Shown here piece after piece: positions 1,135 to 6,484 of a stretch of 8,068 bases of DNA. Positions within the stretch are counted from its first letter, which is position 1, and each line of letters opens with the position of its first letter. The notes beneath the pieces are model-generated. The model searched no databases. It saw nothing but the letters and a program-made list of their open reading frames with translations, and had not been told where the DNA came from. The translations under genes were made by a program, and so were the position numbers. This stretch comes from an uncultured Beijerinckiaceae bacterium (GTDB lineage Bacteria; Pseudomonadota; Alphaproteobacteria; Rhizobiales; Beijerinckiaceae): NCBI GenBank assembly GCA_937863205.1, contig CALMGA010000086.1, positions 1-8,068 on the forward strand, given 5' to 3'.

Positions 1135-1212
1135 CCCCCTTGCGCTGCCACATGTCGCCGGTTCTCGGCAAGGCTGCCGGGTAGACGCCGATGCGAACGG
1201 ATCGCGCCGCCG

Positions 1213-1314
1213 AAGCAGGTTCGCGTCGGCAGGCCAACGCTTCACCCGCTTCGCTTTCCGACAAGCCGCAGGTTTTGATCGCAAAACCGCGGGGCACTTT
1301 TGCGAAACCTGCTT
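1213..1314. repeat. 102-bp interspersed intergenic element, copy A
   Basis: One of three gapless copies in the window (others at 3025-3126 and 6222-6323). By hand count copy A matches copies B and C at 89 of 102 positions each. The left end reads aagcaggttcgcg; the right end reads gcgaaacctgctt, which is nearly its reverse complement (one base of slip). Inside are a quasi-palindrome gtcggc-ag-gccaac (a T:G wobble in RNA on the minus strand) and, strongest in this copy, ggttttg-atcg-caaaacc. The element lies between the response regulator and epmA. Its right edge supplies the TAA stop (1315-1313) of the response regulator. No transposase and no clear target duplication are seen. Confidence 0.9.
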
Positions 1315-1687
1315 AGAACGTCACGGAGTTCACGCGATCCAGAAGTTCGGTGCTGGTGAACGGTTTCTCGATGAAGTGCGTCGCGCCGCTGTCGCGCGCA
1401 ACCGCGCCGTAGCGCTTCTGCGACTTGGCCGTGGCCATGATGAAGGGAATCTTGGCGGTACGCGGCTGAGCCCGCAGCCTGAGCAGCAGATCCATGCCCG
1501 ACATCGGGCTCATGTTCCAGTCCGAGATCACCAGCCCGAAGGTCAGCCTGCCGGTCAGGGCAAGGGCTTCGCCCCCGTCCGCCGCCTCGTCGATGTTGGC
1601 GAAACCGCTGGCTTCCAGCATCCGGCGGATGATCTTGCGCGTCACGCGGCTGTCGTCGACGACGAGGATGCGGGCATAAGGCAGCAT
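1313..1687 (-). CDS. Single-domain CheY-like response regulator
   Basis: This 124-residue protein consists only of a receiver domain, so it should pass a phosphoryl signal to a partner by protein contact rather than bind DNA. The acidic pocket is Asp11-Asp12 and the phosphoacceptor is Asp56 in SDWNMSPMSG. The switch Thr is Thr86 (MATAKS) and the conserved Lys is Lys108 in EKPF. All active-site residues are present. The NMSPMSG version of the loop, with Pro one residue later than in CheY (NMPNMDG), is a variant I recall from receiver-only proteins of alphaproteobacteria. The start ATG at 1687 puts ILVVDDS at the usual distance. No histidine kinase or chemotaxis gene is nearby, so the pathway cannot be told. 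The gene runs towards epmA, with repeat copy A between, and diverges from efp. Confidence 0.92.
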   Translation of the reverse strand: MLPYARILVVDDSRVTRKIIRRMLEASGFANIDEAADGGEALALTGRLTFGLVISDWNMSPMSGMDLLLRLRAQPRTAKIPFIMATAKSQKRYGAVARDSGATHFIEKPFTSTELLDRVNSVTF

Positions 1688-1914
1688 GGTGGGCGATCTC
1701 GGTGGGCCGGCGACGAGGCCATGCGCCAGGGAGCAGTGACACCATCCGCTTACCTCTTCCTTTCGGGAAGATGCGGGATGGCGCGGCGAAGCGGGATGGC
1801 CATCGTCCGGCAGGCCGCGCTGCAATTTCACTTGATCGGCGACGGCTCGCTGGCTAGCCAGGAAGAAAGGCCGCCGCGCACCGCCGCCTTCCCCGCGTCC
1901 CCAAAAGGCTCCCC
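1688..1914. promoter_or_regulatory. Divergent intergenic region between the response regulator and efp
   Basis: These 227 bases must hold the promoters for both divergent genes. I see no convincing -35/-10 pair. A weak candidate for efp is ttgatc followed 17 bases later by tagcca. Symmetric sequences that could be operators are an inverted repeat tcttcc-tttcg-ggaaga (1755-1771) and a perfect 10-base palindrome gatggccatc (1795-1804). A 10-base direct repeat gcgggatggc occurs at 1773-1782 and 1791-1800. The efp ribosome binding site is aaaagg (1903-1908), six bases before the GTG start. Function is inferred from position only. Confidence 0.35.
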
Positions 1915-2484
1915 GTGAAAGTCATCGCCAGTTCGATCCGCAAAGGCAACATCCTCGAACGCGACGACGGCCAGCTCTACGTCGTGCTGACGGCGGAAAG
2001 CTTCCACCCCGGCAAGGGCACGCCGACCACCCAGATCGACATGCGCCGCCTCAGCGACGGCGTGAAGACCACCGACCGGTACAAGACGACCGAGCAGGTC
2101 GAGCGAGCCTTCGTGGAGGACTCGAACTTCTCGTACCTGTATCAGGACAGCGACGGCTACACCTTCATGAACCAGGACAGCTACGAGCAGGTGATCGTGC
2201 CCAACGAGGTACTCGGCACCCAGGCCGTGTACCTGCAGGAGGGCATGGTCTGCGTCCTGTCCATGTTCAACGGCACGCCGGTCGGCATCCAGCTCCCCGC
2301 GCGCGTGACCCTGGAGATCATGGACACCGAGCCGGCGATGAAGGGCCAGACGGCGTCCTCATCCTATAAGCCGGCGAAGCTGTCGAACGGCGCCCGCATC
2401 ATGGTGCCGCCGCACATCGCGACCGGAACCCGCGTCGTGGTGCAAACGGAGGACGGGTCTTATGTCGAGCGCGCGAAGGACTGA
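1915..2484 (+). CDS. efp: Elongation factor P
   Basis: EF-P binds between the ribosomal P and E sites and speeds peptide bond formation at polyproline motifs. The 189-residue length is typical. The N-terminal KOW-like domain carries the modification loop FHPGKGTP with Lys at position 34, the residue that EpmA lysylates. Two OB-fold domains follow (about 65-126 and 127-189). The last contains the family signature region [20 protein letters not shown]. The start is GTG at 1915 with aaaagg six bases upstream. This is the only clear plus-strand gene in the window. It diverges from the response regulator, and beyond that lies epmA, so substrate and modifying enzyme sit in one locus. An EF-P with Lys34 plus EpmA argues for the beta-lysine pathway rather than rhamnosylation, which uses Arg. 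Confidence 0.98.
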
Positions 2485-2533
2485 AGGGCGTTCGGCAGAA
2501 GCATGAGTTGCGCGCCGCCGCTGGATCAAGGCA

Positions 2534-2558
2534 GGAGGGCTCAGCCAGCACTCCCTCC
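2534..2558. terminator. Weak hairpin in the convergent gap after efp
   Basis: In the 160-base gap between the convergent efp and the small minus-strand gene, ggaggg (2534-2539) can pair with ccctcc (2553-2558) across a 13-base loop. No T-tract follows on either strand. The position suits a bidirectional terminator but the structure alone is weak evidence. The rest of the gap shows nothing recognisable. Confidence 0.2.
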
Positions 2559-2644
2559 GCGATCAGCAAGCGTGGGAAAGACGTCTGCAGGCCACATGCG
2601 CCGAAGCCGGCTCGGCAGATTCCGGACTCGGCAGGGCGCACGGT

Positions 2645-2950
2645 TCAGGCAGTGCGGACCGTGCGGCGGTCCAAAACCTTCAGAAGTTCGCCGATCTCCA
2701 GCGGCGTGTCCGATGGCAAATCGTACAAGCGCTCCAGCTTGCGACCGATCACGGTTGATGACGTCATGCCGAGACGAAACCCGACCATGTAGGGCGTCTC
2801 GAGGCGGGACACCTCCGACCTGATATCTACGGCATTATTCTTGTTCGGCATCATCTTCAGCCAGTTGTCGACGACCACCCCGATCCGGGACCCGGCTTGC
2901 TCCTTCACAGCCGACACCCATCCGTCGTGCCGAGAACAAAGAAAAGACAT
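2645..2950 (-). CDS. Small protein of unknown function with a faint NepR-like C-terminal segment
   Basis: I do not recognise this gene with confidence. From the ATG at 2950 it encodes 101 residues. Third codon positions are G/C-rich from about codon 8 to the end, which supports real coding. The protein is soluble-looking, with no signal peptide or membrane segment. The C-terminal part reads IGRKLERLYD, then LPSDTPLEIGELLKVLDRR. This resembles the pattern of NepR-type anti-sigma factors (IGxxLRxLYDxVVxEPVPDRxxxLLxxLD), but about two residues of the central PDR segment are missing and no phyR or ecfG gene is present. The start is uncertain: 2989 and 2854/2851 are alternatives, and the last would give a 68-residue protein of NepR size. 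An extension to 3049 would run into repeat copy B and is rejected. It follows mutT on the same strand, with repeat B between. Confidence 0.5.
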   Translation of the reverse strand: MSFLCSRHDGWVSAVKEQAGSRIGVVVDNWLKMMPNKNNAVDIRSEVSRLETPYMVGFRLGMTSSTVIGRKLERLYDLPSDTPLEIGELLKVLDRRTVRTA

Positions 2951-3024
2951 GATTGTTCCGGCCAAGGGCAGAATACGAACGTTTTGCATTGAAATCGTCG
3001 TAATCGCCGGCTGACGCGTCCACA

Positions 3025-3126
3025 AAGCAGGTTCGCGTTGGCAGGCCAACGCTTCACCTGCTTAGCCCTTTGCCATGCCGCAGGCTTGGATCGCAGAACC
3101 GCGGGGCACTTTCGCGAAACCTGCTT
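3025..3126. repeat. 102-bp interspersed intergenic element, copy B
   Basis: Same length and orientation as copies A and C; by hand count it differs from A at 13 and from C at 14 positions, with no gaps. The ends aagcaggttcgcg and cgcgaaacctgctt form the terminal inverted repeat. Inside is the perfect palindrome gttggc-ag-gccaac. The right edge forms the TAA stop codon of mutT (3127-3125). The left edge is about 75 bases from the likely start of the small protein gene downstream. Variation against the other copies is concentrated in the middle (element positions 40-52). Confidence 0.9.
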
Positions 3127-3568
3127 AGGACAGGGCGGCGATCAGCGCGGGGATCAACGGCGCATCGGCCGGGGGCATCGGCAGGGTCGCGAGGTCGCGT
3201 GGGGGCAGCCAGCGCGAAGCCTGTGCTTCCCGCCCCTGGGCCATGCCCTTCCAGCGCCGGCAAAGGTAGAGCGGCATCAGAAGGTGCACGTCGGGGTAGG
3301 CGAAACTGGCGAAGCTGAGCGGCGTCAGGCAGGCCTCGCCGACGATCAAGCCGAGTTCCTCCGCCAGTTCGCGCACCAGCGCCTGTTCCGGCCGCTCGCC
3401 CGCCTCCACCTTGCCGCCGGGAAATTCCCACAGGCCGGCCATCGCCCGGCCGTCCGGGCGCTGGCTGACAAGCACCCGCCCGTCCGCATCGACCAGCGCC
3501 GCCGCGACCACCAGAAGCAACCTCAGCGTCCAACCCTCCCGGCTGCCCGAGCCTTTCCGGCTGCCCAT
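3125..3568 (-). CDS. mutT: MutT-type Nudix hydrolase (8-oxo-dGTP diphosphatase)
   Basis: MutT cleaves oxidised nucleotides such as 8-oxo-dGTP to the monophosphate and so prevents A:T to C:G mutations. The 147-residue protein has a complete Nudix box, GX5EX7REUXEEXGU, at residues 52-74: Gly52, Glu58, Arg66-Glu67-Leu68, Glu70-Glu71, Gly73-Leu74. The preceding LWEFPGG is typical of MutT. Near the C-terminus PPADAPLI matches the PPANEPVI region of E. coli MutT, with Asp135 in place of the base-recognising Asn. I recall this as common in alphaproteobacterial MutT, so it is not necessarily a defect. The ATG at 3568 was chosen because upstream sequence in frame has no Nudix similarity and poor coding character. 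The first ten residues (MGSRKGSGSR) are unlike the family and the true start could be a little later. The stop codon is formed by the edge of repeat copy B. Confidence 0.92.
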   Translation of the reverse strand: MGSRKGSGSREGWTLRLLLVVAAALVDADGRVLVSQRPDGRAMAGLWEFPGGKVEAGERPEQALVRELAEELGLIVGEACLTPLSFASFAYPDVHLLMPLYLCRRWKGMAQGREAQASRWLPPRDLATLPMPPADAPLIPALIAALS

Positions 3569-3746
3569 GCCGCCGGCCGAGATGGGCCGCTGCGGGCCTT
3601 GGCGCAGCAAGCCAAGCCGGCAAACGCGCGGCATCGGACCGTGCAGCGAGTGGCACGGCCGCAGCTTAAAGCATCGCCAAGTCCAGCAGCAACTACGTTC
3701 GTGAGGGCACCGCACGTCGCTCCCGCGCTGAGATCGCCATCCCTGC

Positions 3747-4006
3747 TCAGAGAAAGTCGGGCTCGACGCGATCCTCGCGCTCCTCGACCGGTTGCACGAC
3801 CTGCGCGAGCGAAGGCCGAGACATCGGCCGGTGAGCATGCGGCCTCACCTCGTCCCCGGCATCGTACACCAGGTCGCATCCAACCTGCCGGGTCGGAAGG
3901 CGCCGATCTCCTCGCAGGAGCGGACGAAGCGCCGAAAAATGCGGTCGCTGTCAGCAAGTCGCGCGATCGTCAGCGGGCGCTCGAGGTTTGTCGACTGGAC
4001 TTGGTC
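3747..4006 (-). pseudogene. Possible frameshifted remnant in the gene-poor gap 3569-4118
   Basis: The 550-base gap between mutT and the hydrolase contains no intact gene that I recognise. On the minus strand one frame reads protein-like sequence from about 4006 to 3896 (DQVQSTNLERPLTIARLADS, then DRIFRRFVRSCEEIGAF). Another frame takes over from about 3905 to a TGA at 3749-3747 (QVGCDLVYDAGDEVRPHAHR, then PMSRPSLAQVVQPVEEREDR, ending VEPDFL). Both stretches have mostly G/C third positions. One frameshift would join them, which suggests a decayed gene, but no good start codon is visible and no family is recognised. Chance open frames in GC-rich DNA remain a real alternative. In 3569-3746 I see nothing. 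Confidence 0.25.
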
Positions 4007-4084
4007 GCGTCCATGAAGCCGCCCGTCATGGGGCCCTCGGCGTAGGTTGATACGTCGCGGACTGAAGCCGTTCCCACGCGTCAC

Positions 4085-4115
4085 GCCCGCCTGGATTCGG
4101 GATGGAGGCGCGGGC
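4085..4115 (-). terminator. Hairpin directly after the hydrolase gene
   Basis: Inverted repeat gcccgc (4085-4090) and gcgggc (4110-4115) with a 19-base loop lies three bases beyond the hydrolase stop codon. An alternative inner pairing cgcct/aggcg overlaps it. It is where the FAD-oxidoreductase/hydrolase operon should end, but no T-run follows on the minus strand, so intrinsic termination is only a possibility. Confidence 0.28.
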
Positions 4116-4118
4116 ACC

Positions 4119-5084
4119 TCACGGCATCGGTCCGCGCCGTTCCCGCCTGCTCTCGGGACCGATCGTCCGCTCGATGAAGCGAAGGGTTGCCGCGAACGCC
4201 CTCAGGTTGGCCGCCCGGCTTTCATCGGCCGTTCGCCCGGCCAGATTGTGATCGAGCCCCGGCATCACCACCAGTTCGCGAACGATGCCGGCGGCCTCCA
4301 GGCGTGCGGCCATCTCGACGCTCTGCTGGAAGGGAACGACGCGATCGCCGTCCCCCGTCACCAGCAGCATCGGCGGCGTCGAGGGCCCGACCGAGAGGGC
4401 GGGACTGGCCGAGCGCAGCAGGTCGGGATGGCAGGCCGGCCCCACGCAGCCGAGCAGCCGCCATTCCGGCGCGGTCGCGAGATCCCGCGACCCGGCGTGG
4501 GCGACGCGCGCCTGGTCGGCGATGGTTGTCATGTCGAACACGCCGTACCAGGCGACGGCACCCTCGATGCACCCCTCCCTGGCCCGCGCCCGTGATGCGC
4601 AGCCCGTGCCGGCGAGCGCCGCCAGCAGACCGCCGGCGGACTCGCCCCAGGCGACGATGCGGGTCGGGTCGATGCGGTCGGCGGGCTCGTCCGCGCCGCG
4701 ACGGAGGAACGCGATGGCGGCCGCGACATCGGCCATCTGGGCGGGGAACCGCGCTTCGCCGCTCAGGCGATAGTCGATCGAGGCGACGGCGTAGCCCCGC
4801 GTCGCCAGGGTCGTGAAGAATTCGAGGAACGGGGCTCCGACGTGCCGGTCGCCGGCGAGCCAGGCGCCGCCGTGGATGAACACCACCAAAGGCAGGCCCG
4901 TCGACGGAGCCGCCGGGTGCGCGGCCGGCGGCAGGTACAGATCGAGATGCAGCGGGCGAAAGCCTTCCACGGTCGCGTAGGTGATCCCGAACCGTTCGCG
5001 CACGCCGCCCGGCGTTGGCTCCCCCGCGCCGGCAGGGCCGGCCAGGGCGGCGGCGCAGAACGCGGCGGCCAAGCGCCCGATCAT
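4119..5084 (-). CDS. Secreted alpha/beta-hydrolase (esterase/lipase, BD-FAE/HSL-like)
   Basis: Serine hydrolase of the alpha/beta fold, probably a carboxylesterase acting in the periplasm or outside. Residues 1-21 (MIGRLAAAFCAAALAGPAGAG) form a signal peptide with an AGA-G-type cleavage site and no lipobox Cys. The oxyanion motif HGGAW is at 71-75. The nucleophile elbow GESAG is at 147-151, with Ser149. The acid is probably Asp247 in GDGDRVVP, and the His is His279 in GLDHN. Together these look like the hormone-sensitive-lipase/BD-FAE group. Four cysteines (162, 172, 213, 218) could form disulfides after export. The second ATG (5084) gives an ATGA overlap with the upstream oxidoreductase and is preferred. 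The ATG at 5090 adds only Met-Arg and is equally possible. The substrate cannot be read from sequence. Confidence 0.9.
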   Translation of the reverse strand: MIGRLAAAFCAAALAGPAGAGEPTPGGVRERFGITYATVEGFRPLHLDLYLPPAAHPAAPSTGLPLVVFIHGGAWLAGDRHVGAPFLEFFTTLATRGYAVASIDYRLSGEARFPAQMADVAAAIAFLRRGADEPADRIDPTRIVAWGESAGGLLAALAGTGCASRARAREGCIEGAVAWYGVFDMTTIADQARVAHAGSRDLATAPEWRLLGCVGPACHPDLLRSASPALSVGPSTPPMLLVTGDGDRVVPFQQSVEMAARLEAAGIVRELVVMPGLDHNLAGRTADESRAANLRAFAATLRFIERTIGPESRRERRGPMP

Positions 5085-6064
5085 CCGCATGGAGCGTCGC
5101 TTGCCAACATCCGCCGGGCGAGTCGGGTGCCCGACAACCACGCATCCTCGACCTCGGGGCCGAGCAGCCAGTCGCCGCACAGGCCGAGGCCGAGGGCAGG
5201 GTTCCAGAGGCTCACGCCCGAGCCGGACTCCAGCGCCCTGGCGTAACGCCAGCGATGCGCCAGCAATGCCAGCGGGATCGGCAAGGGTGCCCCAACCTCG
5301 CGAGCGAGAACGGCGAGCAGTTCGGCCGCCACGGCGCCGGCCTCGTGCTCCAGATGGGCGGTCGACCAAGTGGCCGAGGCGTGAACCACCCACACCTCGG
5401 CCTGCGACGAGCCCCGCCCCGGCTTGGCCGAGTCCCGCGCGGCCCAGAAGATGTCCGCCGAGGCCGGCAGAACGTCGCGGCCGCCCGGCAGGCGCTCGGC
5501 GAAGGCGGCGCCCAGCGTCCAGCACGGCGCCGAGCGCCGCTGCGCCGCCTGCGCGGCCAGACCGGGATCGTGCTGCGCCACGAGAAGCGCAGCCTGCTCG
5601 GCCGGCACCGCCACCGCAAGCGCGGTGAAGCCGGGCTCATCGAACCTTTCGCCGTCGATGCTCCAGGCGCCGTTGCGCCTTTCAAGCCGCTCGACACGGC
5701 TCGACCAGCGCACGTCCAGGCGGCCGGCCATGTCCGCCAGCGGCGCGCTCATCGCCGGCACGCCGACCCAGGCGCCCGGGACGGCCGGCCAGGGGGTCAC
5801 CAGACCGGCCTCGTGCCAGCGCGTGACCTGCCGGACGAAGTCGGCATCGCGCGCCGTGAAGCAGGGGGCGCCATGATCGGCGGCGGCCGGGCCGAGAGCC
5901 GTGTCCAGCACGCGAGACGACAGGCGGCCGCCGGGCCGGCGCCCCTTGTCGAACAAGATGACGGGACGTCCGGCGTCGGCCAGGACCTGCGCGCCGGCGA
6001 GGCCGGCCAAACCAGCCCCTACGATCGCGATCCCCCGCGAGGGCACGGCGGCAGCCATGCTCAT
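5081..6064 (-). CDS. Renalase-like FAD-dependent NAD(P)-binding oxidoreductase
   Basis: The 327-residue flavoprotein begins with a Rossmann dinucleotide-binding motif, GIAIVGAGLAG with GAGLAG at 16-21. An acidic residue for the ribose follows (Asp39 in VILFDKG), then the PGGRLSSR motif (44-51) seen in renalase and amine-oxidase-like flavoproteins. Near the C-terminus GLCGDW and then VEDAWLSGTRLA form the second FAD-contact region. There is no signal peptide, so it should be cytoplasmic. Bacterial renalase-like proteins may oxidise aberrant dihydro-NAD(P) isomers; applying that here is inference. The ATG at 6064 was chosen because it places the Rossmann motif close to the N-terminus with purine-rich aggtgagcagg upstream. 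Starts at 6085 (after ggaggag) and 6058 are alternatives. It overlaps the hydrolase gene by four bases, so the two are almost surely co-transcribed. Confidence 0.87.
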   Translation of the reverse strand: MSMAAAVPSRGIAIVGAGLAGLAGAQVLADAGRPVILFDKGRRPGGRLSSRVLDTALGPAAADHGAPCFTARDADFVRQVTRWHEAGLVTPWPAVPGAWVGVPAMSAPLADMAGRLDVRWSSRVERLERRNGAWSIDGERFDEPGFTALAVAVPAEQAALLVAQHDPGLAAQAAQRRSAPCWTLGAAFAERLPGGRDVLPASADIFWAARDSAKPGRGSSQAEVWVVHASATWSTAHLEHEAGAVAAELLAVLAREVGAPLPIPLALLAHRWRYARALESGSGVSLWNPALGLGLCGDWLLGPEVEDAWLSGTRLARRMLASDAPCG

Positions 6065-6195
6065 CGAGACCTGCTCACCTCGCATCTCCTCCCCGGCGGC
6101 GCTCCGCGATCGGCGGTGTCCGGGGCGGGAATAGAGGCCATGAACCGCGCAACGGCAAGGCCACCGCGGCATGGTCGGGCGCGGCCTGGAGAAGC

Positions 6196-6220
6196 GCGCC
6201 GGCTGACGACGAGCCGGCGC
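6196..6220 (-). terminator. Strong GC hairpin beside repeat copy C
   Basis: A perfect 9-base inverted repeat, gcgccggct (6196-6204) and agccggcgc (6212-6220), with a 7-base loop ends one base before repeat copy C. In a minus-strand transcript it would follow the element and precede the FAD-oxidoreductase gene. No clear T-run follows (gcttctcc), so it may be a pause or attenuator rather than a classic terminator. The 12 bases cgccggctgacg in this hairpin also occur near the same end of copy B (3005-3016). Confidence 0.4.
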
Positions 6221-6221
6221 C

Positions 6222-6323
6222 AAGCAGGTTCGCGTTGGCAGGCCAACGCTTCATCCGCTTAGCTTGTTGATTGGCCGCAGGTTTCGATCGCAGAACCGCA
6301 GGGCACTTTTGCGAAACCTGCTG
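6222..6323. repeat. 102-bp interspersed intergenic element, copy C
   Basis: Third copy, gapless against A and B (13 and 14 differences by hand count). The terminal inverted repeat is aagcaggttcgcg/gcgaaacctgct, with the last base g instead of t. The perfect palindrome gttggc-ag-gccaac is present. It lies between the small interrupted reading frame and the FAD-oxidoreductase gene. The TGA stop of the small frame (6331-6329) is only five bases from the element edge, so the stop-adjacent placement seen in copies A and B holds here too, though the element does not supply the stop. Confidence 0.9.
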
Positions 6324-6328
6324 AGCGG

Positions 6329-6484
6329 TCAGAAGGTGTCGAGATCGCGCCGCAGGGCGAGCGCGAGAATGGCCGTGAGAATGATGAGAGCCGAAAGGAT
6401 CATCTGGAACCGCCATCAACGGTGTTGTTGCAACCAAGACACAATCAAGCGGATTTGCGTCTTACGCAACTCATCCTTCGTCAT
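6329..6484 (-). pseudogene. Small membrane-protein reading frame interrupted by an in-frame TGA
   Basis: An ATG at 6484, preceded by AGGA at good spacing, opens MTKDELRKTQIRLIVSWLQQ-HR. A TGA follows at 6418-6416, and the same frame continues without a gap as WRFQ and MILSALIILTAILALALRRD-LDTF to TGA at 6331-6329. Read through, this would be a 51-residue protein with a charged N-terminal part and one clear C-terminal transmembrane helix. The CGT-TGA-TGG context could come from a CGA to TGA mutation, giving a recent pseudogene. Alternatives are two separate micro-ORFs (22 and 24 residues, the second starting at ATG 6403) or true readthrough. The first half has lower GC than its neighbours. The family is not recognised. 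It follows the RND adaptor gene at 206 bases. Confidence 0.38.

Follow-up and report, generated by a model that had tools for sequence, protein, structure and literature searches.

The window, i.e., the whole 8,068-nucleotide stretch of DNA analyzed here (positions 1 to 8,068 of contig CALMGA010000086.1, assembly GCA_937863205.1 of an uncultured Beijerinckiaceae bacterium), contains three copies of a short repeated element within about 5 kb. The copies, at 1213-1314, 3025-3126 and 6222-6323, are gapless 102-bp blocks in the same orientation, and 83 of 102 columns are identical in all three. A sequence-only reading of this DNA had claimed as much, and its description of the ends as inverted repeats also proved correct. 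Pairwise identities are 89, 89 and 88 of 102; when the window was shuffled 20 times by mononucleotide, copy 1 matched at no more than 46 of 102 positions. A repeat search of the window returned the same triplet, stretched to 130 nt, with the other two copies 82% and 75% identical to copy 1; outside the element boundaries little is conserved between the copies.

The element proper is slightly shorter than first described. An empty site in the serB gene of relatives sets its boundaries and gives a length of 100 bp (AGC...GCT) between two TA target copies. Covariance model R1, which was built from 22 copies and has 106 positions and 35 pairs, matches all three window copies on the minus strand across its entire length. 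The minus strand also carries the neighbors, namely the genes for EpmA, a response regulator, a NUDIX hydrolase and an amine-oxidase-like FAD protein, together with a hypothetical frame. Both the response-regulator and the NUDIX gene stop on the terminal triplet of an element, copies 1 and 2, respectively. Two of the three window copies keep an intact TA at one of their ends, and copy 3 is without TA on both sides (Table 1).

Table 1. Element copies in the window, their target-copy positions and the two genes that end in them.
Feature	Position	Strand	Remark
Element copy 1, 100 bp, AGC...GCT	1214..1313	-	R1 111.9 bits; hairpin A at high-coordinate end, hairpin B at low end
TA target copy of element 1 (right)	1314..1315	-	Together with the first A of the element, makes up the response-regulator stop, TAA at 1313-1315
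Other target-copy position, element 1 (left)	1212..1213		Reads GA
Element copy 2, 100 bp	3026..3125	-	R1 103.6 bits
TA target copy of element 2 (right)	3126..3127	-	Part of the NUDIX hydrolase stop, TAA at 3125-3127
Other target-copy position, element 2 (left)	3024..3025		Reads AA
Element copy 3, 100 bp	6223..6322	-	R1 105.8 bits
Target-copy position, element 3 (right)	6323..6324		Reads GA; its left counterpart 6221-6222 reads CA
Response-regulator receiver gene, ends in element 1	1313..1831	-	PF00072
NUDIX hydrolase open frame, ends in element 2	3125..3838	-	True start probably inside the frame

Insertion at TA is apparent from loci that are occupied in one genome and empty in another. For serB of Methylobacterium, 7 of 30 returned loci were aligned; L328 and L327 are occupied, and L332 and L330 are empty. 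The occupied locus L328 reads ..GAC TA[100 bp]TA GGTTGCG and the empty loci L332 and L330 read ..GAG TA GGTTGCG. The single TA of the empty site belongs to a TAG stop codon, which is the serB stop in all five close relatives without the L327/L328 element. Insertion duplicates this TA and rebuilds the stop as TAA; in L327 the second TA has been lost. In L329 (2011-2115, 41.2 bits), this stop codon is occupied by a member of another subfamily that has TA at each flank, as seen by comparison with L333, and the serB stop dinucleotide has been hit at least twice, independently. In proC of Microvirga, L429 is occupied (48.4 bits) and L430 is empty at TAG, with the second TA altered to TC. Among 98 distinct elements, the most common left ends are CTAA (24), TAGA (17) and TAAA (12), and the most common right ends are TTAG (40), TCTA (12) and CTAG (7); the element ends are TA adjoining RAGC or AGC. 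The comparison of empty sites that had been proposed along with the three copies did reveal TA duplication in relatives.

In one Rhizobium genome (L219, 7176-7265), a solo hairpin A lies directly behind the pckA stop and is absent in the relative L220, with no clear TA at the solo hairpin in this comparison. The two hairpins of the element may move or be lost separately.

The position of the insertions with respect to genes was examined in a set of 99 elements, i.e., 90 of 110 R1 matches, with ten duplicates or second matches per locus and ten low-scoring or odd matches left out, and nine from a further set. The terminal triplet of the element serves as the gene stop at 59 of the 97 ends that are entered by a coding-like frame, with TAA or TAG in 52 cases and TGA in 7. 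The remaining frames either stop within about 60 bases before the terminal triplet (31) or run past it (7). Because insertions placed at random around the ends of coding regions should fall into all three frames, the excess in one frame was tested against one third, which gave a binomial P of 9e-21 for 58 of 65 (59 of 66 on recount). End A and end B provide the stop in 31 and 28 cases, respectively. For PdhB, a search of 59 genomes gave 30 aligned loci; the protein ends at residue 366 in all of them, and one uses the TAA of an element.

The element belongs to a family with many copies in some relatives. Judged by EpmA, the closest genome found is a Beijerinckiaceae metagenome-assembled genome, L001/G001, with 70% identity and partial synteny. 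When 16 genomes were searched at the DNA level, five gave matches: three matches in G001, and 21, 15, 12 and 6 in four genomes of Methylobacterium. Plasmid records matched in 147 cases at E <= 1, of which 133 were from Rhizobium; five of the plasmid matches spanned 80% or more of the query, and four of these five were from Methylobacterium. The phage records searched gave no match to the element. With R1, matches were found in 23 of 60 relatives of G001 (E <= 0.001) and in 30 of 40 and 27 of 39 further genomes (E <= 0.01), where single weak matches may be due to chance. As R1 scored 65 to 101 candidates per genome, high counts may be too low; full-length relatives are abundant in Methylobacterium, with at least 84, 64 and 40 matches in three genomes. 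Other high counts were obtained in Mesorhizobium (at least 77 and 68), Bradyrhizobium (at least 72), Microvirga (at least 59), Rhizobium (at least 50), Ensifer (at least 45) and Mycoplana (at least 43). The spread across Hyphomicrobiales is patchy, with no R1 match in Aureimonas, Devosia, Ciceribacter and one Microvirga genome. Among 13 genomes titled as Rhodobacteraceae genera or family, 12 were without an R1 match and one had 8.

The suggestion that the repeat is mobile but non-autonomous and belongs to a high-copy family gains support from the counts in relatives, found by the kind of covariance-model search that the sequence-only reading had recommended, and from the empty sites; insertion itself is seen in relatives rather than for the window copies.

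The ends point to the transposase family that could move such elements. DDE_3 (IS630) matches occur in 10 of 10 genomes tested, and TA-flanked ends beginning with GAGC were found at 7 of 30 IS630 loci, representing six distinct elements (L363 and L375 are the same). On plasmids, 4 of 12 IS630 loci, chosen among the 40 listed of 928 records, have RAGC ends; these are from Methylobacterium, Microvirga (two) and Azospirillum. Ends that begin with RAGC and are flanked by TA are common to some IS630 transposons of related genomes and much of the wider element family. One example is L369, a 1087-bp IS630 element (NCBIfam NF033545) with ends GAGCGTTTTCGG, 11 of 12 bases being as in element L165. IS5/IS427-type transposases were also considered because Brucella IS711 targets YTAR, and were rejected as the driver, as the best end pair began with RAGC in 0 of 30 PF13586 loci (one Pfam family). 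In G006, a weak DDE_3 (IS630) remnant (C71, 97464-97559) lies some 170 bases from a window-type element (97730-97835, L104) and could be a relic of an autonomous partner.

We consider the element to be, most probably, an IS630-type (Tc1/mariner-like) miniature inverted-repeat transposable element (MITE). It would belong to an alphaproteobacterial superfamily that includes the Rhizobium-specific intergenic mosaic element (RIME) and the Caulobacter CcrM-associated intergenic repeats (CIR), and represent a subfamily that lacks the CcrM site found in CIR. In relatives, the element enters at TA and duplicates it, as it presumably did at the window loci too, and the TA used is very often that of a stop codon. 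Since its first base is A, or R in other subfamilies, the stop in these relatives is rebuilt as TAR and the C terminus of the gene product is kept, whichever element end faces the gene. Movement would occur in trans by IS630 transposases that recognize RAGC-type ends. The frequent use of stop codons may arise from a YTAR-like target that is scarce in GC-rich coding DNA, combined with selection against insertions within genes. After transcription, the hairpins would form the 3' tail of the mRNA. The TA-duplicating empty sites, the IS630-like ends of part of the family and the exact insertion at stop codons offer a testable mechanism for RIME/CIR-type repeats, as well as a reason why these repeats sit behind genes.

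Several observations weigh against this assignment. No IS630 element with the exact end of the window copies (AGCAGGTTTCGC) was found among 30 of 47 listed DDE_3 matches in 10 genomes, and RAGC is a short signature. At the 30 IS630 loci mentioned above, 7 have GTGT/GTGC ends and 16 have other pairs or none, and 8 of the 12 plasmid loci are without RAGC ends. The window insertions have no clean empty site of their own, as L001 is too diverged for the junctions to be compared; at the NUDIX locus it lacks the element, and visual inspection of the alignment puts its stop, TGA, at the same codon. With respect to the stop codons, the gene calls behind the 97-end count come from a heuristic using GC at third codon positions (GC3), the elements are the matches returned per genome rather than randomly drawn ones, and the stop count leaves out those 25 ends, among 196, that lack AGC. 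In the exoS gene of L228, the frame passes the element end and stops inside the element. Furthermore, the conserved internal hairpins exceed the needs of a plain MITE.

These hairpins bear on the most serious alternative, in which the element would primarily be a functional RNA, i.e., a hairpin pair in the 3' untranslated region (a stability element, processing site or terminator) that is under selection, with mobility being secondary. The minus strand folds into two hairpins, first A and then B, which are joined by a linker and comprise 18 and 17 pairs. Pairing is present in 97.1% of cells, and two-sided changes number 50 against 20.3 +/- 5.3 in shuffles, counts that are inflated by the relatedness of the sequences; the two hairpins with their linker are maintained by compensatory changes. 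The consensus fold has an energy of -50.6 kcal/mol on the minus strand and -25.1 kcal/mol on the opposite strand, and 101 of 110 elements in an alignment fitted to R1 retain a U-G pair close to the tip of hairpin A. An RNA role would also suit the 33 G-U against 11 A-C combinations, counted with two conserved G-U pairs left out, but this count is biased because the minus strand was the one used to pick the structure. Gene ends show no preference for the better-folding strand, because end A and end B serve as stops nearly equally. In addition, reading of the sequence showed no T run after either hairpin in the window, where no terminator scan was made. An RNA role of the covarying fold, better on one strand, is a plausible hypothesis, and the reading as primarily a functional RNA is possible though on the whole less likely. 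The repeated structured RNA that had been put forward as an option is compatible with the covariation of pairs, but does not amount to a competing origin.

A REPIN-like nature, with paired palindromes spread by RAYT, a Y1 tyrosine transposase working on folded single strands, appears very improbable. It would account for two hairpins in about 100 bp with one strand folding better, and three genomes with many copies contain Y1 matches, namely G126 (at least 72 copies), G015 (at least 68, in a frame with stops) and, weakly, G016 (at least 48). However, PF01797 (Y1) matched in 8 of 56 genomes, 5 of them above the cut-off, and a Y1/RAYT match is absent from 9 of 12 tested genomes with at least 40 copies (G003, G004, G006, G014, G027, G093, G100, G125 and G128). 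Moreover, the TA duplication seen at serB is not expected of Y1 enzymes. The earlier label "MITE/REP-like" is thus right in kind with respect to MITE, but not supported in the RAYT-driven REPIN sense. Local duplication of one copy inside the 5-kb region, suggested by three same-orientation copies and by only three matches in the closest genome G001, is scarcely credible in view of the little conservation outside the element, the tens of dispersed copies in other relatives and the position of copies 1 and 2 at stop codons of unrelated genes.

To place the element among known repeats, it was compared with RIME1, which Osteras et al. reportedly described in 1995 as a 108-bp element with two large palindromes from the chvI-exoS(chvG) locus, in a paper whose title names an essential two-component system. 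We take the chvI-exoS spacer in rhizobia to be the locus of that original description. R1 matched in this spacer in L278 (Sinorhizobium, 2451-2556, E 2.8e-5; 33 Sinorhizobium/Ensifer loci) and in L228 (Mesorhizobium kowhaii, 4735-4812, E 1.3e-6; 14 loci), where the match begins two bases past the chvI stop. L215 aligns with the L278 spacer insert and is not an R1 match, and no clear TA copy was seen at the Sinorhizobium chvI-exoS insert. As described, RIME1 resembles our element in having a length of about 106 bp and two palindromes, being intergenic and abundant in Rhizobiaceae. In contrast, the window copies come from a Beijerinckiaceae/Methylobacteriaceae relative, have other stem sequences and end in AGC rather than RAGC. 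Neither is the wider family confined to Rhizobium and its kin, as R1 matches are present in Methylobacterium, Microvirga and Bradyrhizobium and, in small number, in Caulobacteraceae.

The two-component operon of L228 carries two elements (2868-2955 and 4735-4812), one behind chvI and one at the end of exoS, where the frame stops inside the element. In the chvI-exoS spacers of L278 and L266, more RIME-like inserts were recognized by eye in the alignment, which R1 did not score there.

The CIR repeats of Caulobacter were reportedly described by Chen and Shapiro in 2003. The available extracts of PMC2229807 give them a length of ~110 bp, two arms, a linker, GANTC in a loop and TA termini, and present their mobility as unexplained; RIME-type repeats are likewise introduced as intergenic sequences of unknown function in an extract of PMC2573895. 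Two arms, a linker and TA at the termini are shared by the family studied here, with TA at one end in two of three window copies. GANTC, the CcrM site, is present in 41 of 97 family elements, in 27 of these at positions 76-80, which we take to lie in or close to the hairpin B loop. None of the three window copies has it, and among window-type elements it occurs in 3 of 25, which differs from CIR. RUP of Streptococcus pneumoniae (about 107 bp, ~110 copies) has been proposed to be a MITE of IS630-Spn1 (extracts of PMC2229807 and PMC3049150) and is similar, by description, in its length, TA termini and IS630-like ends. It differs in that arms and a linker are, according to PMC2229807, absent from repeats other than CIR, and the extracts of both sources do not mention stop-codon insertion for RUP. 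In searches of open-licence literature aimed at the IS630 link, no listed title or abstract connected IS630 or stop codons with RIME or CIR. Halling and Bricker are said to have reported Bru-RS1 and Bru-RS2 of Brucella in 1994, with a length similar to that of the element. The Brucella palindromic repeats are preferred sites of the YTAR-targeting IS711 according to an extract of PMC2266754, which is a likeness by description.

Because the wider family joins features of RIME, CIR and RUP while the window group is without GANTC, we file the window element as a variant inside the RIME/CIR superfamily that works like RUP, and not as RIME1 or CIR proper. The earlier description as "undescribed" holds insofar as no Rfam family matches. 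The recommended Rfam search yielded nothing beyond mir-981, the sole match up to E 1 at a permissive threshold (17.3 bits, where the gathering score is 51). Position and architecture nevertheless place the element in this known superfamily.

A more far-reaching proposal, to be taken as speculative and rather unlikely in its full form, is that RIME, CIR and the window subfamily constitute an order-wide MITE superfamily whose ends evolved to rebuild a stop codon in either orientation. The element would then be an exchangeable structured 3' untranslated region, and the hairpin A motif a real RNA signal common to many unrelated mRNAs per cell. If so, insertion into a stop codon would be nearly harmless. 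If the fold acts as RNA, one mobile element would give common 3' tails to many genes in an order that includes crop symbionts.

Two further features adjoin the elements or their host genes. In the window, a small open reading frame of 24 codons encoding a hydrophobic peptide (MILSALIILTAILALALRRDLDTF) lies on the minus strand at 6329-6403 and stops a few bases ahead of copy 3; it may be the real gene upstream of this copy. In L001 (5025-5315), the response regulator beside EF-P is badly decayed or diverged (34% identity), with its neighbors conserved.

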